A stretch of DNA of 64,000 nt, from contig JALDRC010000001.1 in assembly GCA_031316115.1 (NCBI GenBank), positions 124,001-188,000 on the forward strand, written 5' to 3'. Positions 49,506-64,000 of this stretch are shown one piece after another. This stretch comes from Nitrososphaeraceae archaeon. GTDB lineage: Archaea > Thermoproteota > Nitrososphaeria > Nitrososphaerales > Nitrososphaeraceae. Within the stretch, counting starts at the first letter, position 1. Every line of letters begins with the position of its first letter. Position numbers and translations under genes: made by a program. The notes under the pieces were generated by a model. The model was not told where the DNA came from. It did no database searches and saw only the letters and a list, made by a program, of their open reading frames with translations.

Positions 49506-51774
49506 TTGAAAATTATTATTTCTGGAATTGTCCAAGGAGTTGGATTTAGACCTTTTGTCCATAAAATTGCCAGTGAATGCAATCTTTCAGGATATATTCA
49601 AAACCAGTCCGATGGGATTGTTGAGATATATATCCAAGGGAATAGAAGAGATATCAATTTATTCCTGAAAAAGATCAAAGAAGAAAAACCTATTCTTGCA
49701 AAATATGAAAACATCGAAATTCAAGAATATCCTGAGAATCAGAATTACCAAAACTTCACTATTAGATCAAGTTCTGAAAATATAAAAAATTACGGGTCAT
49801 CAATTCATCCAGATGTTTCAATTTGTAGTAAATGCATAGAGGAATTTTTCCACGGAAAAAGAAGGCGAAATTATTATTTTGTTTCTTGCACTGATTGTGG
49901 TCCAAAATATACAATTTTTAAAAAATTTCCATATGATAGAGCTAATACTACTATGAACGATTTTTCAATGTGTCCTTTATGCCATGTTGAATATAATAAT
50001 CCATTCGATAGATTGTTTCATTATGAATTAATTTCATGTAAAGACTGTGGCCCAAGATTTTCAATTCTAGATAGTAATGGTTCGACTGTTGAATGCAAAG
50101 ATCCTATACTTTATTCAGCTAAATTATTGAAGGAAGGTAACATAATAGCAGCTAAGGGGATAGGGGGATTTCATTTAATAACCTCAGCGACTGACTCTGA
50201 TCCAATAACAAGGATTCGCATAAAGAAAAATAGAAAGAAAAAACCATTTGCAATTATGAGTAAAGATCTAAAATCTGTAAGATCTTTTGCTATTTTAAAT
50301 GAGAAAGAAAAAGAAGTGATAACTTCATTGCAACGACCTATTGTTATTCTGGAGAAAAGCGATAGTTACTATCTTTCTCCTTTGATATCACCTACTTTAA
50401 ATTCTATTGGTGTAATGCTTCCATATAATGCGTTTCAGATTTTACTATTAAATCATATTCCTTATCATACGTTAGTAATGACAAGTGGGAATTACAAAGA
50501 TAATCCAATTATAAGTGACAATAAAACAGCATTAAAGAATTTAACTGATTGTGCAGATTATTTTCTTACTCATAATAGAGAAATCTTCACACAATGTGAT
50601 GACTCCATTGTTAAAATAATAGAAAACAATCCTATTTTGTTAAGAGGATCTAGAGGTTTTTCCCCTTTAAAAATTATTTTACCTGAGGAAGTACCAAACT
50701 GTATTCTGGCACTTGGGTGCGAAAAAAATCTTACTTTTTCAATAGCTTATAAATCGAATTGTTTCCTTTCACAACATATAGGGAATATTAACAACTCGGA
50801 ATCTTATCGCTATTATAAGAGTATGATCGATAAGATGATCAAATTTTATAACCAAAATCCATTGTATTTTGCATGTGATATGCATCCAACAATGGTGACT
50901 ACAAAATTAGCATTTAAACTTTCTAACGATGTATCACGAGTATTTCAAATTCAGCATCATCATGCACATCTTGCATCACTTATGGCAGAATACGGTTTAC
51001 AAGATATTATTGGTATAATATGTGATGGAAGTGGATATGGGCTAGATGGAAGCATTTGGGGTGGAGAAATATTTCAATGCGAAAATATAAGAAAAATAAA
51101 AAGAATTGGCCACCTACGTGAACAACCCTTGATAGGAGGGGACCTTGCAACTATTTATCCTCTAAGAATGGTTGTGGGAATGTTAATGGGTAATGTAGAC
51201 GGTGTTGAAAATTTCCTTTATTCGAACTTAAATCATTTTTCCAATGGGAGAAAAAGAGATAGAATCGATTATTTCCATAAATAAATCACGTTTATATCAC
51301 AAGACTACCAGCACAGGAAGGGTACTTGATGCAATTTCGTCATTATTGGGAATATGTTATCAAAGAACTTTTGAAGGCGAACCAGCTATATCTTTAGAAT
51401 CTAACTCAATAAATGGTAAGGACATTTTAATTTCACCAAAGATATCGGATAATGTGTTAGATACAACTTATTTGTTGAAATTTATATTCGAAAATAAAAA
51501 CAAGTTTTCGTTAAAAGATCTAGCATATTCTGCACATGTCTATATTGCAAAAGGATTGGCAAATATTGCAATAGAAAATGCTTTATCATCTGGTATAAAA
51601 GTAATAGGATTTTCCGGCGGAGTTGCTTCCAACAAAGTAATTACCAAAGTTATCAAAGAAGAGGTGGAAAAAAGGGGGATAAAATTCTTACAACATAAAA
51701 ATATTCCACCGGGAGATGGTGGAATATCTGTGGGACAGGCTTATTATACAATGTCTGAGCTATTAAAAAAATAA
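49506..51774 (+). pseudogene. hypF: Carbamoyltransferase HypF, split by a +1 frameshift
   Basis: Makes the carbamoyl group that becomes the cyanide ligands of [NiFe] hydrogenase. The first frame (49506-51284, 592 residues) carries acylphosphatase (GIVQGVGFRPFVH, 8-20), zinc fingers with Cys at 107, 110, 128, 131, 156, 159, 178 and 181, a YrdC domain (AKGIGGFHLI) and the first half of the Kae1-like domain (VFQIQHHHAHLAS). The second frame (51244-51774) holds the rest, with IGFSGGVASNKVITKVIKEE. The natural junction is HFPMGEKEIE. The five-T run at 51236-51240 has one T too many for it. Either a sequence error, ribosomal frameshifting or a dead gene. TTG start. First of hypFCD. Confidence 0.88.
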
Positions 51775-51823
51775 ATTTTCATCTACAATCTTTTTAGGTT
51801 AGATATTCCACTGAAATATAAGA

Positions 51824-52114
51824 ATGTGTTTAGCATATCCAGGAAAGATTATCGAGCTTGACGGAGATTTTGCAAAGATTGATTTTGGAGCAAGCACCAT
51901 TAAAAATGATATTAATATTTCCCATGTTAAAGGAAAGAAAGGTGATTATGTTTTAGTTCATGCAGGATACGCAATAGAGATCTTAGATCTAGATGAAGCG
52001 GAAAACATGATAAATTATTGGAAGGATATTACTGCATGGAAATGTAAGCGATGCGAAATAGCACAAGAATGTCCTACAGGGAATATTGTAAATGAAATCA
52101 ATTCAAAAGCGTAG
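51824..52114 (+). CDS. hypC: Hydrogenase maturation chaperone HypC
   Basis: 96 residues. Essential Cys2 in MCLAYPGKIIELDG and the His in DYVLVHAGYAIEILD. The C-terminal extension has CKRCEIAQECPTG, a Cys-rich tail beyond the minimal HypC. Carries the Fe(CN)2CO unit with HypD. It starts 49 nt after hypF and 22 nt before hypD. Confidence 0.95.
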   Translation: MCLAYPGKIIELDGDFAKIDFGASTIKNDINISHVKGKKGDYVLVHAGYAIEILDLDEAENMINYWKDITAWKCKRCEIAQECPTGNIVNEINSKA

Positions 52115-52136
52115 CATTGGGTGATGAAAAAACAGA

Positions 52137-53252
52137 ATGATTCTTAAAGAATATAAAGATCCATATTTAGCAAAAAAATTAAGTGAAAAAATCCGAATAC
52201 TGGCCGAAGAAATAGAAGAAGATTTATTATTTATGCATGTATGCGGATCTCATGAATGGACGATATCACATCACGGTATTCGCTCTTTATTGCCAAAAAA
52301 TATAGAAATAAGACCTGGTCCTGGTTGTCCTGTTTGTATAACACCATCTGAAGATATAGATAATGCCATCAAACTTGCTCTGGAAGGGATTACTGTTTTA
52401 GTATATGGAGATATGTCAAGATCTAAAGGAACATTTGGTAATAGTTTACTGGAAAGTAGATCTGACGGAGCAGAAGTTCAAGTCATTTATAGTATTCATG
52501 ATGCGATAAAACTTGCAAAGACTAGTCCAGAAAAAGAATTTATTTTTTTTGGGGTGGGTTTTGATACTACATCACCTCCTACTGCTTATGAAATATTAAA
52601 AGGATTCCCTCCAAATCTTTCTATTATTCTATCATATCGATATATGCCTCCTATTGTAGGTGCTGTACTACAATCCTCTATCTTAGGTATTGATGGTGTG
52701 ATAAATCCTGGGCATTCTTCTACCATCACAGGAATGAAACCATATTATCCCTATTTTTTGGAAACAAAGAAACCTCAAGTCTTTGCAGGTTTTGAACCTA
52801 TTGATATTCTGATTAGTATTGTTATGTTACTCAATCAGATCAAAAATAATGATTATAAACTTGAAAACGAGTATACTCGATCTGTTACGTGGGACGGAAA
52901 TTTGAAAGCTTTAAAAAAACTGGATCAAGTATTTGATCTGGATAAAAGTTATGTCAGGGGTGTAGCCCATATAGAGGAGTCAGGTTTTACTCTTAAAGAT
53001 AAATATCGTCATCTTGATGCTTATTTAAAGTATGGAATAAGAAAGAAAAACTCTAACGATCATTTTGTTTATGGTGCCAGATGTGGGGAAGTAATTATTG
53101 GTTTGTGTGAACCCACAGAATGTCCACTTTATATGAAGGAATGTACTCCTCATTCGCCAAAAGGACCTACAATGGTTTCCTTTGAAGGAACATGTAGAAT
53201 ATGGAGTGAACACGCTATTATAAAGTCAATCAAAAAAATACAAAAGGTCTAA
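52137..53252 (+). CDS. hypD: Hydrogenase maturation protein HypD
   Basis: Scaffold for assembling the Fe(CN)2CO group. Cys36 in MHVCGSHEWTISHHGIRSLL, Cys64 and Cys67 in RPGPGCPVCITP, and the C-terminal [4Fe-4S] cysteines in GARCGEVIIGLCEPTECPLY and further on. 371 residues, complete. ATG 52137. Confidence 0.96.
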   Translation: MILKEYKDPYLAKKLSEKIRILAEEIEEDLLFMHVCGSHEWTISHHGIRSLLPKNIEIRPGPGCPVCITPSEDIDNAIKLALEGITVLVYGDMSRSKGTFGNSLLESRSDGAEVQVIYSIHDAIKLAKTSPEKEFIFFGVGFDTTSPPTAYEILKGFPPNLSIILSYRYMPPIVGAVLQSSILGIDGVINPGHSSTITGMKPYYPYFLETKKPQVFAGFEPIDILISIVMLLNQIKNNDYKLENEYTRSVTWDGNLKALKKLDQVFDLDKSYVRGVAHIEESGFTLKDKYRHLDAYLKYGIRKKNSNDHFVYGARCGEVIIGLCEPTECPLYMKECTPHSPKGPTMVSFEGTCRIWSEHAIIKSIKKIQKV

Positions 53253-53310
53253 ATTATAGGATATTTATGTTATTGAACCGCCGACTTACTTTCCATTTGG
53301 ATTAATCCAT

Positions 53311-54087
53311 ATGGCTTTTTTTATCGGAAATAGTTTTTGCAGATTATGTCAAATGAATGAGGAAGATCTTAAGAATGAACTCATATTCTGTAGTAATGGA
53401 CTGAGAACTAAAGGTCTATTACCTCCAATTAAATCCATTCACAGTACAAGATTACCTAATTCTAAAAGAATATGGACACCAATTCCCTTAAGGGATGACT
53501 TAATCAAAGAAATGAAAACAAATTATGATGTAAATTATTTTGATCTAGATAATCTGGAATCTAATAATATCAATAAATCAATTAATGAACAATGTTCCAT
53601 TCATGAATTAAGATTACATTCCGAGTTGTATAAACTAAGGCCAGATGTTAATGCTATCTGTCATACAAATAGTCCATTTACGATTTCTTCATTTAAAAAT
53701 GGAACTTTGGAAAATGTACATGGGGAAGCCAAGTTAATACTAGGAGACATACCTGTTGTTAGATTAAATGAAGATCTATTTAATTACCATAAATCAGAAA
53801 AGTTTTGGGAGGAAATGATTAAACTTGTTTCTAGATCTTGTATAGGTGAGCCACTAAGGCCTATCCGAATAATAATTTTAATTCAACACGGAGTAATTTC
53901 TCTAGGAGCATGTCTACATGAAGCTAGGGCTTTTGTAGAGATCCTAGAAGAATGGGCAAGATTTAATGTATATGCCAAGATCATAGCTAGAGGTGATCAA
54001 ATCCGTACTCTTACTTTAGAACAATTAAGAAGTTTAGGAGGACGTTATGCACGTTCGATCAAATTTAGTGGTCGATGTTCGTTGTGA
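53311..54087 (+). CDS. Class II aldolase/adducin-like protein next to hypD, one zinc ligand lost
   Basis: 258 residues with class II aldolase fold marks: catalytic-type Glu99 in SIHELRLHSELYKLR, the zinc pair AICHTNSP with His118 kept but Asn120 where the second His belongs, and a third His193 in IQHGVISLG. Its N-terminus (MAFFIGNSFCRLCQMNEEDL) has two Cys. It follows hypD by 58 nt on the same strand and so looks like part of the hyp operon. A paralogue with all ligands lies at 60962-61627, on the far side of the inserted DNA. A role in hydrogenase maturation (for example small-carbon supply) is an inference. Confidence 0.75.
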   Translation: MAFFIGNSFCRLCQMNEEDLKNELIFCSNGLRTKGLLPPIKSIHSTRLPNSKRIWTPIPLRDDLIKEMKTNYDVNYFDLDNLESNNINKSINEQCSIHELRLHSELYKLRPDVNAICHTNSPFTISSFKNGTLENVHGEAKLILGDIPVVRLNEDLFNYHKSEKFWEEMIKLVSRSCIGEPLRPIRIIILIQHGVISLGACLHEARAFVEILEEWARFNVYAKIIARGDQIRTLTLEQLRSLGGRYARSIKFSGRCSL

Positions 54088-54198
54088 TTTAGAAAACTAA
54101 TTTCTCGAGTTAATCATAATTTTAAAATAATCTGCAGATCAAGTCTTATACTTTTTAAGAATAACTCTATATTTGTGTAATCTTTTACCTTTTATAAC

Positions 54199-54630
54199 AT
54201 GAAAATTTATGATGTAATGTCCGTTGATATTATTTGTGCAAAAAAAGATGCCACAATCATAGAAGTGGCAACAAGAATTGTTTTAGGTGGAATCAATGGA
54301 GTTCCTATAATAAACGATGATGGTGTGCCAATTGGAATTATAACTACAATAGACATATTACGTGCAATTAAGGATGGAAAAGATCTGAACAATACCACAA
54401 TAGGAGATATAATGAAGAATAATCCTTTAGTGACAAAACAAAATGACGGAATTGAAGAAACGATTGATATTATGGATAAAAATGGAATTTCAATGATTCC
54501 AGTTGTTGAGGATGATGGACGAATAATTGGCATTTGCTCAAGATCTGACATATTAAAAGAAATTCTAAATGAAAGATTTGTAATGATAGGGAGAAAAAAA
54601 ACTACTACAACAACATTAGGAGTTGGATAA
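54199..54630 (+). CDS. Two-CBS-domain protein
   Basis: 143 residues: CBS 1 (DVMSVDIICAKKDATIIEVA, then GVPIINDDGVPIGIITTIDI) and CBS 2 (MKNNPLVTKQNDGIEETIDI, then MIPVVEDDGRIIGICSRSDI). CBS pairs bind adenosyl ligands and sense energy state. There is no attached effector domain. 111 nt after the aldolase-like gene on the same strand. Confidence 0.9.
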   Translation: MKIYDVMSVDIICAKKDATIIEVATRIVLGGINGVPIINDDGVPIGIITTIDILRAIKDGKDLNNTTIGDIMKNNPLVTKQNDGIEETIDIMDKNGISMIPVVEDDGRIIGICSRSDILKEILNERFVMIGRKKTTTTTLGVG

Positions 54631-55191
54631 AAATCAAAGATCTGTATAAATTAGATTTAGAAATTTTCAGAATCCTGTTGAAGATAAATTATTATATCAA
54701 TTAGGACATTGATATTCCTGATTAAAATAATAAAGCAATGTGATATTATATTAAGATAGATATATCTATTATTTCGTCACATGTCTTAGCCTCCTACTAT
54801 ACACTTGTACGATTGTCATTTAGTTCAATGAAATGTCTACTTTTTAGTAATTATAGTATTGTATGAATAGCTAATGTCTGTTAAACCTTGGTTTTTCCAT
54901 ATCATATTTGTGATGTAATATTCTTTCACAATGTGTTAGTATTTACTATACGACCATTAACATGTTGTATGTTATACCCCTTGCCAGAATGCAAAATAGA
55001 GAATTAACATTCAGATTTATAACATACAACGCTAATACGATGCTAAATTTATTATTAGATACTTTCTACAAATCCTATTTTATTTTAGATATTTAATATT
55101 GTAAAAAAAAAGAATAAAAATCATATTTTATGCTAAATCTAACTTGCATATGGAAAAAATGATTTCTAGAATATAATTAAAAATAATTTTT
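54631..55191. other. 560-bp gap with a perfect inverted repeat
   Basis: AT-rich, no coding frame. It contains the 13-bp inverted repeat described separately. This marks the start of the decayed stretch between the two hyp blocks. Confidence 0.45.
54964..55030. repeat. 13-bp perfect inverted repeat, 41-bp spacer
   Basis: GTTGTATGTTATA at 54964-54976 and its exact complement TATAACATACAAC at 55018-55030. Pairing can extend outward imperfectly (ATTAACAT against GCTAAT). It could be the ends of a small non-autonomous element or a structured RNA. Confidence 0.55.
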
Positions 55192-56333
55192 TTAAAAAAA
55201 AATAAAATAATCTAATTGTAATTCATAAAGATATCCGTATTCTCTTTTTTTCTCATCTATAGAATAATTTGTACCTAAACATAAACACCTTTCAGCCATT
55301 CTATTTATTATCAAATCAATGTCGCCATCATTTAATGGAATAGAATTAACTCTAAAGTTGCGAATCTTGGTAGGTATAAGCTCTATTGTGCAATTTTCTA
55401 GTATCATATTACTCTGATTGTTAGAACTATTACTTGATTTAAGGTTCTTTTCTGGATGAAAATTCAATAGGAAAATAAAAGACAGATCATTCCTATAATT
55501 AGGATCTGTTGCATAATCATCTATAAAATCACCACAATCGTATAGTATTATTTTTTGATTATTTCCTTTTTTATAGATCTCTATACCTTGGGGGTGTGAT
55601 TACTATGTCCCCAATATATATCTGCACCAAAATCGATTATTTTATGCGCAAAATTCACGTATGTATTAGAGGGCATCTCTCTAAAATGAGGTCCTACATG
55701 AGAAGCAACAATAACTAAATCCGATTGCTTTTTAGCTTCTAAGATAGAATTTTCAAGCCTATCAGAGTATATGTTTTGTTGTAATGTTAATGGAATATAA
55801 TTTACTCCCGGAGAATTAGGATATGCTTCCCATTCTGGCTGATTATCAGTTAATGAAATTAATCCTATTCTTATAGAATCTTTGATATTTTCATACTTTT
55901 TTACATTAAGTTTTTTGTGTTTGTCTTGATTTATTTTTATTTTTTTTTCAATGAAAGCCGGTTTAGTAGCATTTTTGAGATCTTTCCCTGCACCAGAATG
56001 AGAAATATTATACTTGTCCAATAAATCAATTGTATCTACCAATCCCTCAACATCATAATCTAATATATGATTATTGGCTAAAGCAACATAGTCAATACTA
56101 GCAGATTTCAAAACCTTAATAGCATTCGGATGGGCTCGAAAATGAAATACCTTGAATGTTTTTTTCCATTCTTTACCCTTTGAAGATATTGCGCATTCTA
56201 AGTTTAGAAGAGAAAAATCTGCTTTTTGGATGATTTCTATTGTATTTCCCCAAACATATTTAAAGTTCTCTTTAGGAAGAACATTATTTACAAGTCTACC
56301 AAGCATAACATCACCTACAAAAAGAATTTGCAT
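55192..56333 (-). pseudogene. capA: CapA-family protein, frameshifted
   Basis: The first 250 residues (55581-56333) are a CapA/poly-gamma-glutamate-type metallophosphatase-like protein: QILFVGDVMLGR, FSLLNLECAIS, YVALANNHILDYDVEGLVDT, LVIVASHVGPHFREMP and IYWGHSNHTP. It then stops at KV. Its proper C-terminus (GIEIYKKGNNQKIILYDCGD and on to 55192) lies in another frame. One C missing from the run at 55590-55594 (GGGGG on the plus strand) explains it, restoring HTPQGIEIY and about 381 residues. Either a sequence error or a true mutation. Confidence 0.8.
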
Positions 56334-56874
56334 ATAGTATAAATCAAATACTAAATAAAAAATATTGTTTACTGTTTAACACAGAAAATTGTTTATAACT
56401 ATCGTTGAAATGACGTAATAAAAATGATAGATAATCTATTAAGATTTCTCTTATGCCTACTTTAGATTCATTGACTATTAGAGCAGGATGCGTTACTCAT
56501 CTCTGTAAATGAAATGGTAGCCTATGTTAGGAAGTAAATCAATTAGATAATAAATAAGAAAATTCAGAGATACCCTTTAACTTGGCTTTCTGATTTTGGA
56601 TTTGAGAAATGATGTTAATGCATTATGGGAAAATAGTTAGAAATGAACTATTACAGATCAAGTGCTACTTCATCACATGGGAGGATTACAACTACTACGA
56701 AAGAGGAAAGGTTTATCATATAGAGATTTCTTTTCTAAATTCGCAAGATACATTTTAGGTATGTTAAAAGAGCTTGTGACTCGTAATTTGAGATAGTTCA
56801 CTACAATTATGATTAGCCATATTATCCTTTTGAATAATTTTTTATATAAATAATTTTTTAAAGACTCAGTATAA
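56334..56874. other. 540-bp gap, probable decayed DNA
   Basis: No intact gene. A short frame near 56660-56800 reads LRKRKGLSYRDFFSKFARYI, which could be a fragment of a transposase or integrase, but I cannot assign it. Confidence 0.4.
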
Positions 56875-57558
56875 ATGAATTATAGAGTATTCAAAGATAG
56901 AGAAGAGGCAGCAGAAGAACTGGCTGAAAAAATAAAGAGTTATTTAATAAGCATTGGTATAAGAGAAGGTACAGAAGAACATAAAGCAATTGTCGTTTTA
57001 GCGATTCCACGTGGAGGAGTTATTACAGGAGATGTTATTGCATCAAGAGTGAAATGTGATATGGATATAATTGTATCGAGAAAGATTGGTGCTGAAAATA
57101 ATTCAGAACTTGCTATTGGTGCACTATTACCAGATGGAACCTATTTTATTAATGAACGCATTGCGAATATGCTAAACACTCCTAAAGTATACATAGATAA
57201 CGAGGTTAAAATTCGGAAAAAAGTAATCGAATGAAGACTAATAGAATTTAGAGGTAACAAAAATTATAACTTGGATAGAAAAATCGTAATTTTGGTGGAT
57301 GATGGTATTGCAACAGGATCTACAATTATAGCTGCAGCAAAATGGATAAAAGAAAGACATAATTGTAAAAGATTAATTATTGCAGTTCCAGTCGCACCTG
57401 CTGCAAAAGACACTATTGATAAACTCGATGAACTTGCAGATCACGTTATAGTTCTAGATATTAAAGAATTCTATGCTGTTGGACAATTTTATCAAAACTT
57501 TAATCAAGTTGAAAATGAGGTAGTTAAAGAAATTATAAAAAAATATAAAAAACAGTAA
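56875..57558 (+). pseudogene. Phosphoribosyltransferase-fold protein with an in-frame TGA
   Basis: The two pieces (56875-57234 and the frame through 57558) are in one frame, separated only by TGA at 57232-57234. The reading is IRKKVIE-stop-RLIEFRG. N-terminal half: AIVVLAIPRGGVITGDVIAS and IVSRKIGAENNSELAIGAL. C-terminal half: the PRPP loop IVILVDDGIATGSTIIAAA. An Arg codon (CGA to TGA) is the simplest original. Total length would be 227 residues. These proteins accompany the alpha/beta hydrolase of the type at 48673 in other genomes. Nonsense mutation or sequence error; selenocysteine is unlikely at an Arg-type site. Confidence 0.8.
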
Positions 57559-57654
57559 TTTTACTGGATTTGCCATTATTATTACAATATCGGAGTTTAA
57601 GTTTGATATACTAGATACATTTTTTATTATAGTTTTGAATCCGTATTATCAATA

Positions 57655-57880
57655 ATGAAGAGGAAGACAGTTCAGCAGGTGGAGAGCAGGAAGAAACAAC
57701 AGGGGGAGCAAGAGCAAGAACAGCAGCGAGAGCAGAAAATTGATTACATAACTCAATCAACTACGCCATTCATAAAGAAGGCCATAATGGAATTAGCAGA
57801 CATGCATAAACCCAGAAAATGTAGATATCATTTACGATTATATAGTTGCTGAACAGTCAGAATCCAATATCAAAATATCT
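57655..57880 (+). pseudogene. Tyrosine-integrase N-terminal fragment
   Basis: Begins with a Gln/Glu-rich head (MKRKTVQQVESRKKQQGEQE), then STTPFIKKAIMELADMHKP. After that the frame slips: removing one C from the CCC near 57812 restores ENVDIIYDYIVAEQSESNIK. This resembles the N-terminal SAM-like part of integrases I associate with thaumarchaeal integrated elements, from memory and not from a search. The catalytic domain is absent, so it would be the stub left when an element integrated or decayed. Confidence 0.5.
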
Positions 57881-57909
57881 ATCTTCCTTCCTTTGTTCCT
57901 GAATTATTA

Positions 57910-58345
57910 TTATAATTCTGCACTATTATCTGAATAACTGATTAGTTTAGCACCTATAGCAATTCGTTCTTTGATATCTGTGTCTAATTCTTCTGGTTCC
58001 AATCTATTCCTTCTATTATTGTTCTTGTTTCTACTATATCTGGGTTTTACAAATGGTTCAACATACAATTTTTTGCTATCATGAATACTTTCTGGTACTT
58101 CCTTGAAGCCGGTTATAGTATTTTCTTGCTTATCATGTTCTACTGGATAGATTGTACCACAAGAATAACATTGTACCCAACTCTCTGAGTCTGCTGAAAT
58201 CTGTCTATTGATATATTCATGTTATTGGTAAACTCTAGGTTTTAGTTGTTTGTATGGAAATCCATAACTTTCACAGTGGACACAATATCTTTTATCCTCA
58301 CCGGATTCTGAACTATAAGAATTTTCAGTTAATGACTTGAAATCT
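57910..58345 (-). pseudogene. Zinc-binding protein gene with an internal stop
   Basis: A minus-strand frame reads through about 140 codons with one TAA inside: KRYCVHCESYGFPYKQLKPR, stop, then ESWVQCYSCGTIYPVEHD and LEPEELDTDIKERIAIGAKL to TAA at 57910-57912. The two CxxC pairs suggest a zinc ribbon. Directly downstream of the terminase-like remnant. Family not recognised. Confidence 0.5.
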
Positions 58346-58832
58346 TGATAAATGCAACTCCTTTGTCTTCTCTTCTGGTAATAGTAGTTCAGAGGGTTTT
58401 GTAATCAGAAAGTGTCTGTATTTCTCAATGTTTAATATCAAGTTTTTGAGGGTTCGAAGGTGTTCGTTTGCGTGTGCCTGTGACTGAGCAATTATTAAAA
58501 TGTCTACCTTTGCATGTCGTTCATGCTTTCTGGAAGTCTTCAAGTAGCGCTGAGGTTGAAAGGCCTACTTTCTGACTCTTGACTACCAGCCTGTACTTGG
58601 TTTTGCTGTCATTCCATATCTGATATTGATATGGTGTTAGTTCTTGTACTGGTTCACGAGTCTTGGGATGCAATAAATAACCAAAGTCTGTATAGAATGC
58701 TTGTGGATTTGATGGAATCATTAGGTTACTAATTATTGATTGCTTACTATGAATACTATTACTAGATCGATTCTTGATAGAATCAGAATCTAACGATAGT
58801 AGGTTACTTGCTTGCTGGAATACTTTGAGCAT
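58325..58832 (-). pseudogene. Terminase-like (viral packaging ATPase) N-terminal remnant
   Basis: ORF 58521-58832 reads NPQAFYTDFGYLLHPKTREP, LTPYQYQIWNDSKTKYRLVV, then the P-loop-like KSQKVGLSTSALLEDFQ. It stops at TGA. The second frame (58325-58543) continues DILIIAQSQAHANEHLRTLK and FLITKPSELLLPEEKTKEL. This order fits a large-terminase ATPase whose C-terminal nuclease is missing. The assignment rests on domain order and recollection of similar provirus genes, so it is moderate. Confidence 0.5.
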
Positions 58833-59316
58833 TTTCCTTTAGTGCTTGGTTATTGGTATTGTTGGATTCTAATCTGTCTATCCTGTCTATCCTGTCTATC
58901 TTTGCTTTGATTTGCGCTACTATTGAAGTTCCTAATGATAGTTCTTGGAACAGTTTGGAATTCTCTCGAATCTCGTACCTTAAACGATTAACTTCGTTCT
59001 TATTGGGTTTCTCTGGTGTTTTATTATATTCTATAATATAGTCTCTAATTGTGTCCTTCTACACCATTTCAATAATATTAATTATTTCTTGGTGTTTAAT
59101 TACAAATCCAACCTTGTTAAAATATGAAAGCCATTGTTGTGCATAATCTCCACTATCAACTTGCTTTTTCCTGAGATAGTATGCGTCTGTAGATATTTTT
59201 CTCCCTAGCCTGGCTTTAATGTACGCTAGCGCTTCCTTCTCTGAGAAGCCATAGTTAACGCAATCAGCAACTAATGGCATCAAAATCTTATTCTCTTTTG
59301 CTGTAAAACTATCCAA
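58804..59316 (-). pseudogene. Element-borne protein gene with one TAG (170 codons)
   Basis: MDSFTAKENKILMPLVADCV leads a helical, DNA-binding-looking region (NYGFSEKEALAYIKARLGRK). After EMV a single TAG (59059-59061) interrupts, and the same frame continues KDTIRDYIIEYNKTPEKPNK to TAA at 58804-58806. The continuation contains RIDRIDRID encoded by three 9-bp repeats (58874-58900). It overlaps the terminase-like frame by 29 nt, the position where small terminase subunits often lie. Confidence 0.55.
58874..58900. repeat. Three tandem 9-bp units (CTGTCTATC)
   Basis: Exact triplicate inside the preceding pseudogene, giving RIDRIDRID-type residues on the minus strand. Confidence 0.85.
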
Positions 59317-59575
59317 CTACTCTTTATGCTCTCCTTGTATAATGAAATCTGCTTTGTTGCGAAAATATGATTTTAGTTGCTTTTGATTAAAAATATGAAT
59401 TGGTATTTATATAGACTTTCAATTTTATTAATTAGTTCCTATCAAAATTTTATATGATATTATCGATTTTCATAATTGCGCAACAAAGCAATGAAATCAA
59501 ATAAATATATCATATTATTAGCATAAAAAGATTATTAACTTTTGGGGTAAATTTTAATAACTTTACGTATCTTGA

Positions 59576-59866
59576 TTAATATGGTCTTTTACCAATCTTT
59601 CTTCGGAATACTCGTCTTCCAACCCATTCCAATTTCCTTTTTACTGCATGTTCCTCAAATATTCTCCAGTAACAAACGTCACATAACAGAACTGTCTCCT
59701 TAATCAAATATGCACTTTCCATCTTTAGTTGAAATCTAAACCCACAGTTATCACAACTGGCTTTAAGGTAATCAATAGTGTAATTATATTCGTTATCAAA
59801 AATTCTAGGATATTCGCTAGCTTTTTCTTCCTCTGTTTCTTCCTCTTTTTCAGCCAATTCAGACAA
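59576..59866 (-). CDS. Zinc-ribbon protein of the integrated element, 96 residues
   Basis: Acidic N-terminus (MSELAEKEEETEEEKASEYP) followed by SCDNCGFRF and LLCDVCYWRIFEEHAVKRKL, two CxxC pairs, and a basic tail. Intact. Small zinc proteins are common in archaeal viruses and plasmids; function unknown. Confidence 0.6.
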   Translation of the reverse strand: MSELAEKEEETEEEKASEYPRIFDNEYNYTIDYLKASCDNCGFRFQLKMESAYLIKETVLLCDVCYWRIFEEHAVKRKLEWVGRRVFRRKIGKRPY

Positions 59867-59893
59867 TTACTCCTTTGTTACAACGATAACTAT

Positions 59894-60148
59894 TCATTCC
59901 CAAGGATTGTCTTTTGGCTCTATATTATATCCGAATTCCATACGAATTTTATTAATCATCTCTTTACTTGGTTGGTAGATTTCCCTTGAATGCTCCTTAG
60001 AAGAATGAATCAAATAATCCTCTTTATTATCGAACTCTAATGAACAATAATAACATCTAATTAATTGGAATTCTCCGTTATGGAAATTATTTAAATTGTT
60101 ACTATTATTTTTGCTCGTATCAAGTATAATACTGAAAGAACATGTTAA
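59894..60148 (-). pseudogene. C2H2 zinc-finger frame without a start codon
   Basis: Open frame from 60148 to TGA 59894. The zinc finger is IRCYYCSLEFDNKEDYLIHS followed by SKEHSREIYQPS. No ATG, GTG or TTG precedes the finger in frame. It sits 27 nt upstream of the zinc-ribbon gene on the same strand. Probably a truncated gene of the same element. Confidence 0.45.
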
Positions 60149-60961
60149 TTAACTATTCTATATTTTTGTATATCTTAATTAGTTTATTCTGTTTGTAAAA
60201 GAAAAAAGATAATTTGAGGATCTAGATTCAAAAATTCTTTGGTTTCCGAGTATTGTATACAATTTATCATAAACTAATATCGGATCTTATCTTGCGCAGA
60301 GAAATTGGAGGGATATGCTTCTTTTGGGATGATTGGGTTAGTATCATTAATCGATTTGCTGTTAGTACTCTCCTTCTATTTCTATAATTAATATAGTAGT
60401 AGTAAAATAGTAATAATATCAACCCATACCCAGAACGGCCTACTGTGAAACCGTTCTATGAGTCCGGGCAGGGCTGAATGTTGGTAATGGCTTACTACTT
60501 TACCTATCGTAGTACTTGGTTTGATATTAGATCTGGATTGTGCTAGTATAATTTTTGATGAATCTTTTATAGTCATATCTTTCTAATCAACTATTTTGTC
60601 AATTTAATAGAACTTTGTGAACGCATCTTTTTCCATCTGAGTAGTTAGGTAGGAGTCATTCGTTTGCTACTAGGTTTTTACCCTATCCTTGTGCTTGTGC
60701 TTGTGTATCTGCATACAGTCTTGTGGATTGCAAGATAATTAATAGTGGTTCGGTGTGAGATGTAATTGAATGTGAAGTAGATTAGAAAAAGGTGATATCG
60801 ATTTAGTCTAACTATTCTAGAAAGCTACTTAAAAAGATATGACGTAATAATATCTTTAAGAAATTTGAAATAAAGTGTAGATCCGCAAGACTGATGGCAC
60901 TTAACTTATAAAGACAATATTTTATTATAATTTAAATTCGAGCAAATCTTAAGAATAATGT
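60149..60961. other. Decayed right part of the element
   Basis: A minus-strand frame at 60388-60576 reads HYQHSALPGLIERFHSRPFW, which looks like the start of another element-borne ATPase but is cut short. Its DNA also contains a 7-bp hairpin (60432-60438 with 60451-60457). A CTTGTG triplet repeat lies at 60688-60705. Nothing intact. Confidence 0.35.
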
Positions 60962-61627
60962 TTGTCTTGTGAGTTGTGTTCTTCATATAATTTGAGATTC
61001 TTTAAACTAGAATTAGTAAAATCAGTAAAATCGTTCTACTTAAATGGATTGGTATCAGTAGGTGGAGGAAATCATAGTTTTAGATCCGAACTCAGAAATC
61101 AAATTTGGATTACTCCGTCTGGCTATCCTAGATCCCATTTGAAAGATGATGATCTAATTCTGATTAATCTAGAAGGAAACATAATACAAGGTAATCTGAG
61201 ACCTACGATTGAGGTTCCGTTTCATACTGAAATCTATAAGAATAGAGAGGAAATTAATGCCATCTGTCACGTACATAATCCCTATACGATTGGATTTTAT
61301 CTTAGCAGTAAATTAAAAAATACACAGTATGAGGGAATTTATACTTTGGAATCACCTCCCGTAAAACTTCCAATAGATTTACAAGATACAGTAGTATTAG
61401 ATTATCAACAACTGGGATCGAAAATATTAGGAAAACTTGTAGGAAAAGCAACGACAATTGATATTAACTTGTCTATTTCAGAATCGGTTTCTCATCCTCG
61501 CATCATTATCCTGCTCAACCATGGAATTATAGGTTTAGGCCGATGTATTCATGAAGCCAAATTTCTTGTAGAATTATATGAAGAATGGGCTAAATGCATA
61601 ATGATAAAAAAAGTATTACAATATTAG
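60962..61627 (+). CDS. Class II aldolase (fuculose-phosphate aldolase-like)
   Basis: 221 residues. GLVSVGGGNHSF and WITPSGYPRSHLKDDDLILI mark the family. Catalytic Glu84 in PTIEVPFHTEIYK, zinc His103 and His105 in AICHVHNPY, and His187 in LLNHGIIGLG are all present, so it may be active. The paralogue after hypD (53311-54087) lacks one ligand. Flanked by decayed mobile DNA on the left and the minus-strand hypE unit on the right. TTG start. Confidence 0.85.
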   Translation: MSCELCSSYNLRFFKLELVKSVKSFYLNGLVSVGGGNHSFRSELRNQIWITPSGYPRSHLKDDDLILINLEGNIIQGNLRPTIEVPFHTEIYKNREEINAICHVHNPYTIGFYLSSKLKNTQYEGIYTLESPPVKLPIDLQDTVVLDYQQLGSKILGKLVGKATTIDINLSISESVSHPRIIILLNHGIIGLGRCIHEAKFLVELYEEWAKCIMIKKVLQY

Positions 61628-61712
61628 ACAATACCTGAGATTTTGGAAGAGTTATAACGAGAATTTCTGTAAACATATTAAAGATATTTTTCCCTCTCTT
61701 GTCATTTCATTT

Positions 61713-61824
61713 CATAAATCATCTGGAATACTTGTAATTGTTCTAACGTACTTTTTACTCGAACATTATTGGATATGATAAGAAACTAACGATCTATAGT
61801 CCTATCTATTTTTGGAATATGCTC
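61713..61824 (-). mobile_element. Orphan right end of the IS5/IS1031-like element
   Basis: Closely matches the end of the complete element (about 13108-13219): CATAAATCATCTGGAATA, then TTTTTACTC, ATTGGATATGATAAGAAACT and CCTATCTATTTTTGGAATAT, ending GCTC. The terminal 15 bp differ from the intact inverted repeat at several positions. The rest of the element is missing. Confidence 0.8.
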
Positions 61825-61828
61825 TAAA

Positions 61829-62191
61829 TTAAGTAGTATCATTTGTTTTATTATGATTGAATTCAAGTATACATATATTTTTTTTAACTATAAAAATAAT
61901 TTCTTCAAGATACTTCTCACATTTGTTTTGATAAAATTGATTAATTAAATTAATAATTTTCTCCCAATCATAGTATAATCTTTTGCCTTTTATCCATATT
62001 ATTCTATTTTTCCATCCAATAGATGGCTCTTCATGAAAATGTAGGTTAAAAAGAGCAGAATTTGCATCGATAATTTCCTCAAATGCTTTTAATAAACTAT
62101 TTATTGCAATATAATTATTTTTGTCTAATTCATCTTCTGCAATTTCAACCATAACTTTTGCAAATTTAATATGCCAAAAATATGATGACAA
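61829..62191 (-). CDS. Helical 120-residue protein, possible HEPN-like
   Basis: Predominantly helical: WHIKFAKVMVEIAEDELDKN, NSLLKAFEEIIDANSALFNL and LYYDWEKIINLINQFYQNKC. It resembles HEPN/PaREP-type bundles only in overall character. It follows the Cys/His-rich gene by 12 nt in the hypE unit. No RNase motif (RX4-6H) was clearly seen. Confidence 0.55.
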   Translation of the reverse strand: MSSYFWHIKFAKVMVEIAEDELDKNNYIAINSLLKAFEEIIDANSALFNLHFHEEPSIGWKNRIIWIKGKRLYYDWEKIINLINQFYQNKCEKYLEEIIFIVKKNICILEFNHNKTNDTT

Positions 62192-62203
62192 TTTACTTTT
62201 TAT

Positions 62204-62488
62204 TTACTTATCAGCTAAATCATTCAGGTTATCATAATCTTTAGGAGTCATTCTAGGAATATCGTCATATTTAGATTCCGAGTAGAACATAGGCACATTA
62301 CAATGTAATGGAATATTCTGTTGAAAATCACATTCTTCACAACAAAGACATTCGATTTTTTCAAATGCTCCTTTAATCTGCCATTTCATATCCTTTTCGT
62401 GGTGTTGAGGTATATTGTCGTCAACATATTTGCAAATTCGACAGATGAATTTTTTTTTTATATTCAAATTAGAAACCCCTCGAAACAT
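62204..62488 (-). CDS. Small Cys/His-rich metal-binding protein beside hypE
   Basis: 94 residues with CRICKYVDDNIPQHHEKDMK and CLCCEECDFQQNIPLHCNVP followed by Met. These two Pro-x-His-(His/Cys)-x-x-x-Met/Asp-type repeats, with CxxC knuckles, suit a zinc or nickel site. 39 nt after hypE, same strand. No HypA or HypB is in the window, so a metallochaperone role is tempting but unproven; the MHE N-terminus of HypA is absent. Confidence 0.6.
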   Translation of the reverse strand: MFRGVSNLNIKKKFICRICKYVDDNIPQHHEKDMKWQIKGAFEKIECLCCEECDFQQNIPLHCNVPMFYSESKYDDIPRMTPKDYDNLNDLADK

Positions 62489-62527
62489 TAGATTTGACCT
62501 TCCATCAAGTTTTGAGAGATGTATTCA

Positions 62528-63580
62528 TCAACATATTCGAGGAATTGGATCTCCTGAAGGCATGGGAATTATTCGATTACCTCCTATTATTGTTTCTAAA
62601 ACTGGGATATCAATTTCATTAATTGCTTCTCCAATTATCATGGCATCTTCTCCTTCTTTAGTCTGTTTTATCGTTTGTAATATTTCCTCCGCTTTTTCTG
62701 GAATAGCTGAAATACAGACCTTTCCTTCATTTCCAACTTCTAGATAATCAATTCCCAAAAATCCCAATGCTGTTCGTACACTTTCCTTTACAGGAATTTT
62801 TTCTTCATAAATTTTTAATCCAATTCCTGACTTTGATGTCCATTCATTTAGAAGATTAGCCAGTCCTCCTCGTGTAGGATCTTTAATGTTTGTTATTCCC
62901 CCAATTGCTAGTGCCTTTTCAATTACGCTATTTAAGGGAGAAACATCTGATTTTATATTACTATCAAATCCATAATTATTTCTTGCAGATAAAATTGCTG
63001 TTCCATGGTCACCTAAGGTTCCAGATATTATAATTTTATCTCCTTTCTCAATATTAAAATCGGATAACCAAAGCTTGTTATAATTAGGCCTATATTTTTG
63101 TATTATTTCTAGATTATGTTCTAATAGCTTGCTCTTTTTGCCTATTCCTGTAGTAGTAATAACTAATTTATCGATTGATTTTTTTTCCATGACTTTTGTA
63201 TCTCCTGTAACAACATGAACTTTAGCTTCAGTACAGGTTTCGTGAATACTCATCATTATTCTTTCTAGATCATCTATAGGAAAACCTTCTTCGATAATGA
63301 GACTACATGCGAGAGCAAATGGATCCCCACCCATTACTGAGATATCATTTACTGTTCCCGAAATAGATAATCTACCGATGTCACCTCCAGGAAAGAAAAG
63401 TGGATTAATTGTATAGGAGTCGGTAGAAAAAACTATTCCGTCAATTATTGCTGCATCGTCCAACGCACTTAGCGGAATTTCACAGCTTTTATCCTTAAGA
63501 TTTTTTATAATAGTGTTCTGAATCATTTGTTGCATTATTGCTCCACCTCCCCCATGCATCATTGTAATATTTTTATACAT
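62528..63580 (-). CDS. hypE: Hydrogenase maturation protein HypE
   Basis: Dehydrates the HypF-made thiocarbamate on its C-terminal Cys to thiocyanate. PurM-like fold: MMHGGGGAIMQQMI, VFSTDSYTINPLFFPGGDIG, ISGTVNDISVMGGDPFALAC, SGTLGDHGTAILSARN and KDPTRGGLANLLNE. It ends in the required PRIC with a terminal Cys. 350 residues, complete. Divergent from the hydrogenase small subunit, 153 nt apart. Confidence 0.96.
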   Translation of the reverse strand: MYKNITMMHGGGGAIMQQMIQNTIIKNLKDKSCEIPLSALDDAAIIDGIVFSTDSYTINPLFFPGGDIGRLSISGTVNDISVMGGDPFALACSLIIEEGFPIDDLERIMMSIHETCTEAKVHVVTGDTKVMEKKSIDKLVITTTGIGKKSKLLEHNLEIIQKYRPNYNKLWLSDFNIEKGDKIIISGTLGDHGTAILSARNNYGFDSNIKSDVSPLNSVIEKALAIGGITNIKDPTRGGLANLLNEWTSKSGIGLKIYEEKIPVKESVRTALGFLGIDYLEVGNEGKVCISAIPEKAEEILQTIKQTKEGEDAMIIGEAINEIDIPVLETIIGGNRIIPMPSGDPIPRIC

Positions 63581-63733
63581 GAATAATGTAAATTATGATT
63601 TGATATTATATCAAGTTCACGAAAAAAAAGGAAATATTACTAAAATCATTAACATTACCATTACAAGTTTCTCCAAATCTTTAGTTTTGGAAATTCATAA
63701 ATAATATAAATAAAACGAGATTAAATTACTATA

Positions 63734-64000
63734 ATGAAATTAAATGTAGGTTGGTTTTCATTTACATGTTGTGAAGATAGTACAATTGTTTTTATAGAAC
63801 TTATGAACGAAAGGTTTTTTGAGTGGAGGAAATTAATCAATTTTAAGTATTTTAGAACTTTCAAGTCAAATAACTCTATAGATGATTTAGATATAGCTTT
63901 TGTAGAAGGCGCTATATCCAGTAGGAAAGAGGAGGAAACATTGAGAAAGATACGAGAAAATTCTAAAAAACTTGTTGCTATTGGTAGCTGCGCATGTACT
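63734..64000 (+). CDS. [NiFe]-hydrogenase small subunit, 5' part (cut by window end)
   Basis: First 89 residues: LNVGWFSFTCCEDSTIVFIE with Cys12-Cys13 and, at the end, AIGSCACT with Cys86 and Cys88. These are candidate ligands of the proximal [4Fe-4S] cluster in the hydrogenase/complex I 20-kDa family. DIAFVEGAISSRKEEETLRK is a typical block. The maturation genes alongside support a hydrogenase. The catalytic subunit should lie just beyond the window. Confidence 0.85.
   Translation, partial: MKLNVGWFSFTCCEDSTIVFIELMNERFFEWRKLINFKYFRTFKSNNSIDDLDIAFVEGAISSRKEEETLRKIRENSKKLVAIGSCACT

Follow-up and report, generated by a model that had tools for sequence, protein, structure and literature searches.

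Class II aldolase-like and small metal-binding-type proteins as probable accessory factors of oxic-type archaeal [NiFe]-hydrogenase maturation

The hydrogenase maturation (hyp) genes of a Nitrososphaeraceae archaeon are accompanied by two aldolase-like genes (Ald1 and Ald2), a gene for a small Cys- and His-rich protein (Small) and a gene for a helical protein (Helical), which raises the question of what these four contribute to the assembly of a [NiFe]-hydrogenase. All four very probably assist, as accessory factors, the maturation of [NiFe]-hydrogenase in an archaeal system of the oxic type, and for the aldolases and Small a functional link to hydrogenase maturation is strongly supported. The window, i.e. 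the whole 64,000-nucleotide stretch of DNA that was analysed, ends within the gene for the hydrogenase small subunit, and the contig was followed beyond this point (Table 1).

Table 1. Genes of the hyp region and of the adjoining contig extension, in window numbering.
Gene or product	Position	Strand	Basis
hypF, carbamoyltransferase	49506..51774	+	two overlapping frames, 49506-51284 (N-part; TIGR00143 E 1.3e-193) and 51244-51774 (C-part; E 3.1e-37)
hypC, scaffold chaperone	51824..52114	+	TIGR00074 above cut-off
hypD, scaffold, type A clade (AOA/Sulfolobaceae)	52137..53252	+	TIGR00075 E 1.4e-114, and tree
Ald1, degenerate class II aldolase domain, probably non-catalytic	53311..54087	+	PF00596 E 8.5e-14; HTN instead of HxH
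Ald2, class II aldolase domain	60962..61627	+	PF00596 E 5e-34
Helical, small helical protein, no family assigned	61829..62191	-	conserved position beside Small
Small, 94 aa, two C-x2-C/His-Cys knuckles, probable two-metal protein	62204..62488	-	alignment; always adjoins hypE
hypE, cyanide-forming maturation enzyme	62528..63580	-	TIGR02124 E 2.4e-109
hydrogenase small subunit, truncated 159-aa form	63734..64213 (past window end at 64000)	+	PF01058
hydrogenase large subunit	64206-65486 (beyond window)		contig extension
maturation protease	65467-65862 (beyond window)	-	contig extension

HypC, HypD, HypE and HypF were all detected in this genome with NCBIfam models; hypF is broken by a one-base frameshift near 51244-51284, and is a single intact frame in relatives. 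The gene positions agree with those given in an earlier note on this DNA, with hypF, hypC and hypD followed directly by one aldolase-like gene, and a second one, the helical protein and the small Cys/His protein lying beside hypE, ahead of the hydrogenase small subunit. Extension of the contig past 64 kb, which the same note had proposed as a check, revealed the large subunit and protease genes, but no hypA or hypB. Their absence from the window, also remarked upon there, is true of the whole genome, in which nothing reaches the cut-off for either protein: the HypB match is UreG-sized, and the HypA match is a weak fragment containing a stop.

The same gene grouping was seen in 20 genomes, which belong to three families, and is well beyond chance. 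Both Ald1 and Ald2 are present in all 11 assessable hyp loci of the Nitrososphaeraceae and Nitrosocaldaceae, and nine Sulfolobaceae display the order HypE-Small-HypC-HypD-Ald, with one Ald each. An Ald gene is located directly 3' of hypD, often overlapping it, in all assessable loci of the three families. Small always adjoins hypE, and is placed between hypE and hypC in the Sulfolobaceae, while the position of Helical beside Small is kept in the Nitrososphaeraceae and Nitrosocaldaceae. The suggested search for co-occurrence revealed that the module tracks one HypD type: among 19 sampled Sulfolobaceae, Ald and Small were both present in the eight genomes with a type A HypD (8/8) and in none of those without (0/11). 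They are likewise absent near the hyp genes of relatives with other HypD types, and neither is found near a second, group 1g hyp set that four of the Sulfolobaceae genomes with the module also contain; the matching set of Acidianus brierleyi is reported to be expressed anaerobically (PMC11018855). In the HypD tree, sequences of the AOA type fall into one clade with those of Sulfolobaceae type A (100/99). This topology allows the association to have arisen only once, which means that the link between the module and oxygen is confounded by shared ancestry. A scan of named genomes with two peptide patterns, which missed most Sulfolobaceae and is no proof of absence in other groups, gave good matches in Nitrososphaerales and Metallosphaera yellowstonensis only, the 68 other loci being weak matches with no hyp gene close by. 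Among openly available papers we found none that connects hyp genes with an aldolase of class II.

Both aldolase-like proteins belong to PF00596 above the gathering score, as anticipated, but the metal-binding histidines are kept by Ald2 only. Its Glu/HxH/His site is complete (E84, H103, H105 and H187), and the Sulfolobaceae Ald likewise retains Glu, HxH and the third His; Ald1 has HTN where HxH is expected and is probably non-catalytic, so that, judging from the residues, only Ald2 of the two can be an ordinary metal-dependent enzyme. All hyp-linked aldolases, including Ald1, share an invariant signature of their own, C-x2-C plus C-x-H-E (C3 and C6, and C195 and H197, in Ald2). Ald1 carries an N-terminal GNSFCRLC and a C-terminal tail, RYARSIKFSGR; the Sulfolobaceae Ald has a C-terminal tail too. 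Class II aldolases of the L-fuculose-phosphate aldolase type share the fold with the whole family and the metal site with Ald2, but differ in having neither the private motifs (the C-x2-C being N-terminal) nor the hyp linkage, and also with respect to the lost site of Ald1 and the extra tail. In the aldolase tree the hyp-linked members fall on one side of a branch (96/88), and ordinary aldolases, including one encoded elsewhere in the same genome, lie outside this clade. As to the order of the duplication, Ald1 groups with the single Ald of Sulfolobaceae in the best tree (95/74), and a pairing of Ald1 with Ald2 is not rejected by an AU test (p 0.24). The predicted structure of Ald2 (pLDDT 88.9) matches Fe(II) oxygenases that have the same class II aldolase fold, namely pyruvic oxime dioxygenase, NovR and TqaM (about 20% identity over the fold); a three-His metal site has been shown for pyruvic oxime dioxygenase (PMC5216522).

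Of the readings considered, the most likely, at rather less than even chances, is that Ald2 or the Sulfolobaceae Ald releases a one-carbon unit for the CO ligand and so replaces HypX. HypX joins a formyl-THF transferase domain to an enoyl-CoA hydratase domain. In aerobic bacteria it serves as the formyl-tetrahydrofolate decarbonylase (PMC12134894, PMC6802093), and it resembles the Ald proteins in its hyp linkage and in the proposed role, that of an extra factor giving the CO ligand when a hydrogenase matures in O2, although its fold is unrelated to theirs. No HypX-like protein was found in the carriers of the module, in line with what had been noted for the window; the formyltransferase domain PF00551 is absent from the nine Sulfolobaceae carriers, and its matches in AOA-type genomes are all PurN/PurU-sized. 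Sulfolobaceae able to oxidise H2 in air are without HypX.

In the proposed mechanism, the catalytic aldolase-fold protein (Ald2, or the single Ald in Sulfolobaceae) would release a one-carbon unit, as CO or a CO precursor, from which the Fe(CN)2CO group on HypC-HypD obtains its CO ligand. Fe(II) may serve as the catalytic metal and O2 as co-substrate, a combination known from other enzymes with the aldolase fold; Ald1 would assist Ald2 without being catalytic itself and might dock on HypC-HypD, and the C-x2-C/C-x-H-E signature may bind a second metal. A more doubtful proposition treats the family as a whole as a CO-ligand synthase of a new kind that is compatible with O2. It would be the HypX counterpart of archaea, built on the class II aldolase fold and perhaps iron-dependent, and in the ammonia-oxidiser lineages it would comprise a catalytic subunit (Ald2) and a non-catalytic one (Ald1). 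Several points count against the CO reading. Class II aldolases are not normally known to produce CO; Ald1 has lost its metal site, so that some members of the family do not have to act as enzymes; and Nitrososphaeraceae lack both HypA and HypB, as a result of which their maturation may differ in other steps besides CO supply. The earlier note had put forward the aldolases as possible suppliers or handlers of a small-carbon unit for the CO ligand, with reference to anaerobic-type systems; the tie to hydrogenase maturation stands, and a CO role is plausible with indirect support, but the setting is the opposite one, i.e. aerobic archaeal lineages, the module being missing from anaerobic-type hyp sets. 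The module may be the way in which archaea that use oxygen, namely Sulfolobus relatives and lineages of ammonia oxidisers, make the CO ligand without the bacterial HypX. We found no paper asking how Sulfolobaceae mature hydrogenase in O2, and for Sulfolobus relatives the module provides testable candidate genes for this process.

Other explanations were weighed against this reading. Ordinary metabolic aldolases lying beside hyp genes by accident would account for the PF00596 membership of Ald1 and Ald2, the latter of which might bind a sugar phosphate; this explanation was rejected as highly improbable on the separate clade, the private invariant residues, and the absence of hyp-linked aldolases from sampled Sulfolobaceae without the linked HypD. 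A role in iron handling or protection, in which the Ald proteins together with Small would provide a scaffold, either for bringing iron to HypC-HypD or for keeping O2 away from Fe(CN)2CO, is somewhat unlikely, yet has several points in its favour: the Cys/His signature is retained even in Ald1 despite its lost catalytic site, Ald1 adjoins HypC-HypD, and Small, with two metal knuckles, adjoins HypE. Protection of this type, in which the iron group may be held or protected during oxic maturation, is documented in aerobic bacteria for HupK/HoxV (PMC12134894), proteins that resemble hydrogenase large subunits, unlike the Ald proteins. A pure scaffold would have no need of the complete catalytic site and substrate-loop motifs found in Ald2 and the Sulfolobaceae Ald.

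The earlier note had suggested that Small could deliver nickel; in such a reading Small, perhaps together with Helical, would replace HypA/HypB. Small is rich in Cys and His (invariant C16, C19, H29, C50, C53, H62 and C63), no HypA or HypB above cut-off was found in the other Nitrososphaeraceae carriers either, and the HypA of Nitrosocaldaceae is missing its zinc loop. Nickel delivery is nevertheless improbable, and the replacement of HypA was set aside, because all nine Sulfolobaceae carriers of Small (9/9) also have a full-length HypA; moreover, Small starts with MFR or similar, without the N-terminal MHE nickel motif, and its neighbour is hypE rather than hypA/hypB. Small may instead contain two rubredoxin- or zinc-ribbon-like metal sites and act as an iron or electron donor to HypE, HypC or HypD. 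Its structure model is poor (pLDDT 69, pTM 0.47) and gave no significant match in the PDB; Helical has neither a Pfam nor a PDB match.

Group 3b hydrogenases combine a large subunit of the sulfhydrogenase type with diaphorase subunits. The hydrogenase encoded at this locus has a large subunit closest to the alpha subunit of Pyrococcus sulfhydrogenase 1. On the diaphorase side, the gamma subunit is missing from the cluster, and the sole counterpart elsewhere is a distant paralogue (34%). The group 3b hydrogenase of Nitrosocaldus (PMC5817080, PMC5797428) is similarly an AOA hydrogenase with accessory genes and a related large subunit, whereas in Nitrososphaeraceae the only hydrogenase genes alongside the hyp genes encode the truncated small subunit and the large subunit; the main texts of the two Nitrosocaldus papers make no mention of aldolases. 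A 2023 review lists only Ehr-type complexes without the C-x2-C motif for Nitrososphaeraceae (PMC10432482). In contrast, the large subunit of the present locus, which is accompanied by a protease gene, carries two intact C-x2-C motifs, and a Nitrososphaeraceae hydrogenase locus of this kind is now documented.

In the window, which spans positions 124001-188000 of its contig, hypF (in two frames), hypC and hypD are followed directly by Ald1, one of two class II aldolase-like proteins (PF00596), and, after approximately 6.9 kb of other genes, by the second, Ald2. On the opposite strand after Ald2 lie Helical, a helical protein, Small, a Cys/His-rich protein of 94 aa, and hypE, after which comes a hydrogenase small subunit. 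Extending the contig past 64 kb, as had been proposed in the earlier note, recovered the large subunit, together with a maturation protease, but not hypA or hypB: no HypA or HypB was found over the cut-off anywhere in the 3.16 Mb archaeal genome, so that their absence, first noticed in the window, holds genome-wide. The large subunit possesses both C-x2-C motifs, and the Pyrococcus sulfhydrogenase 1 alpha subunit is its nearest match among solved structures.

HypD was found in 22 of the 400 genomes of the order Nitrososphaerales that were surveyed; the relatives compared include Nitrososphaerales archaeon TH1177 (G004), Nitrososphaeraceae WS9 (G011), Nitrosothermus koennekii (G067) and Nitrosocaldus schleperae (G060), as well as Metallosphaera yellowstonensis (G542). 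Twelve genomes of the Nitrososphaeraceae (family f1) and Nitrosocaldaceae (f2) encode a divergent HypD, and wherever the contig was long enough (11/11) Ald1 lies directly behind HypC-HypD and Ald2 is present, while Small and Helical adjoin HypE. Where HypD is canonical, in ten genomes of families f4, f7, f12 and f13, no gene of this module lies close to the hyp genes; HypA gave a match in each of the ten, either within the hyp locus or in another part of the genome, and HypB also scored over the cut-off in f4 and f12.

A profile search with Small identified eight Sulfolobaceae genomes, and a HypD search of that family added a ninth. The co-occurrence of aldolase and Small with hyp genes recurs in the Nitrososphaeraceae, the Nitrosocaldaceae and nine Sulfolobaceae. 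In the Sulfolobaceae the genes run HypE-Small-HypC-HypD-Ald, and the one Ald resembles Ald1 and Ald2 to about the same degree. Behind it lie a short protein that weakly matches an FeS-assembly family, listed below for L198 and L201, and a short helical protein, which may be the counterpart of Helical, judging from an alignment and a weak match (E 3e-4) in one genome. HypD is present in 11 of 31 Sulfolobaceae and is of two types: type A accompanies the module, and type B is located in group 1g clusters comprised of small subunit, isp1, isp2, large subunit, a Rieske-like protein, HypD, HypC and HypE. Four genomes have both types and two have type B only; no Ald or Small was found around type B HypD within the stretches read. 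In the phylum sample, which has 19 Sulfolobaceae, both Ald (E<=1e-20) and Small occur in 8/8 of those with type A and in 0/11 of those without it (Fisher p 1.3e-5, the genomes being related and not independent).

The hosts of the module belong to groups that the literature describes as oxygen-using. In Acidianus brierleyi, according to a published study (PMC11018855), the products of hypD1, hypC1 and hypE1, located beside the group 1g hydrogenase, follow its anaerobic expression, and the SUL2 hydrogenase is at its maximum in aerobic growth. Type B matches this anaerobic set in its gene order, from which we infer that the module would belong to the other hyp set. A tree of 36 HypD sequences unites those of the ammonia-oxidising archaea (AOA) type with type A in a single clade (100/99), to which neither type B nor canonical Nitrososphaerales HypD belongs; the association of the module with HypD may therefore have arisen once and been transferred later, and shared descent confounds its link to oxygen.

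A tree of 56 aldolases has a branch (96/88) that separates the hyp-linked members (Ald1, Ald2 and Sulfolobaceae Ald) from 25 ordinary ones, one of which comes from elsewhere in the host genome. Ald2 and Sulfolobaceae Ald keep the Glu, the HxH, the third His and the GGN, TPSG and P-x-I-E segments. Ald1 has lost most of these metal-site residues and segments, its second His being R, N, K or E (HTN in the host genome). Pyruvic oxime dioxygenase, which is related to class II aldolases, still forms a tetramer but is inactive once a single metal ligand is changed from His to Asn (PMC5216522), and by analogy Ald1 is probably non-catalytic yet able to assemble. C3, C6, C195, H197 and E198 (Ald2 numbering) are common to all 23 aligned members, Ald1 included; in the ordinary aldolases used for comparison neither the cysteines nor H197 are conserved, and this signature suggests an additional putative metal site. 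Ald1 and Sulfolobaceae Ald have in common a tail at the C-terminus whose last residues are KF-x-GR or KFGGR; Ald2 does not have it. The predicted model of Ald2 (pLDDT 88.9) matches fuculose aldolases as well as three Fe(II) oxygenases with this fold, pyruvic oxime dioxygenase, NovR and TqaM.

That the module takes part in hydrogenase maturation at all is very probable, and that the aldolase is a bystander enzyme is most improbable. HypX supplies the CO ligand from formyl-tetrahydrofolate in bacteria that mature their hydrogenase in air, and its source in systems without HypX is unknown (PMC12134894). A formyltransferase domain is absent from the nine Sulfolobaceae, and the formyltransferase proteins of AOA-type genomes are solely of PurN or PurU size. 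Being coupled to hypD and missing from anaerobic hyp sets, Ald is a natural candidate for this job: as a metal enzyme it would supply the CO ligand in the role of HypX, a reading we put forward tentatively. Its strongest rival, a scaffold that protects against O2 or handles iron, appears somewhat unlikely.

Nickel delivery by Small, as the earlier note proposed, is weakened to the point of being quite doubtful, since full-length HypA co-occurs with Small in 9/9 Sulfolobaceae. The Nitrosocaldaceae likewise retain, alongside Small, a HypA whose zinc loop is missing, and Small is thus not merely a replacement for HypA. Across 20 sequences of Small, C16, C19, H29, C50, C53, H62 and C63 are invariant, and in the Sulfolobaceae its halves read as a repeat of C-x2-C followed by P-x-H-C; two rubredoxin- or zinc-ribbon-like metal sites are our best guess from this pattern, the structure model being of poor quality. 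Weaker Small-like matches exist in other families, with no hyp genes around them at the two loci read (L016 and L017).

The hydrogenase and accessory genes of Nitrosocaldus have already been reported (PMC5817080, PMC5797428), with aldolases unmentioned in the main texts, and a 2023 review (PMC10432482) lists AOA besides Nitrosocaldus only with Ehr-type complexes lacking the C-x2-C motif. No open-access paper was found in which hyp genes are connected with class II aldolases. The locus is a variant of the known Hyp system that may contain a new kind of enzyme. Further features of these loci are listed below.

Coordinates of additional features in the window and in loci of other genomes (L numbers; L003 is the contig past the window end)
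Feature	Locus	Coordinates	Observation
hypF frameshift	window	51244-51284	one base; intact in relatives; real lesion or assembly error
Phosphoribosyltransferase-like gene	window	56875-57558	in-frame TGA near 57232
Homologue of the phosphoribosyltransferase-like gene	L047	14102-14755	uninterrupted
Nitrososphaeraceae hydrogenase small subunit	window	63734-64213	truncated, 159 aa; no diaphorase genes alongside the pair
Nitrososphaeraceae hydrogenase large subunit	L003	206-1486	sulfhydrogenase-like
Short HypA, Nitrosocaldaceae	L042	6630-6893	short HypAs 83-94 aa; MHE nickel end kept, no zinc-binding loop
Short HypA, Nitrosocaldaceae	L205	8970-9233	as L042
Short HypA, Nitrosocaldaceae	L206	8689-8940	as L042
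Short HypA, Nitrosocaldaceae	L287	9698-9982	as L042
Second, divergent HypC-like gene, Nitrosocaldaceae	L042	6929-7153	immediately 5' of hypE
Second, divergent HypC-like gene, Nitrosocaldaceae	L043	13260-13511	immediately 5' of hypE
HypA, then MinD-like ATPase (f13)	L049	11064-12282	in place of GTPase HypB; compare ATP-type HypB systems
HypA, then MinD-like ATPase (f13)	L050	10802-11999	as L049
Distant Small-like double-knuckle protein, other Nitrososphaeria	L016	2036-2224	
Distant Small-like double-knuckle protein, other Nitrososphaeria	L017	3635-3895	
Distant Small-like double-knuckle protein, other Nitrososphaeria	L298		
Distant Small-like double-knuckle protein, other Nitrososphaeria	L299		
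Weak FeS_assembly_P (MIP18/SufT-like) match	L198	12469-12774	between Ald and helical protein
Weak FeS_assembly_P (MIP18/SufT-like) match	L201	7467-7745	between Ald and helical protein
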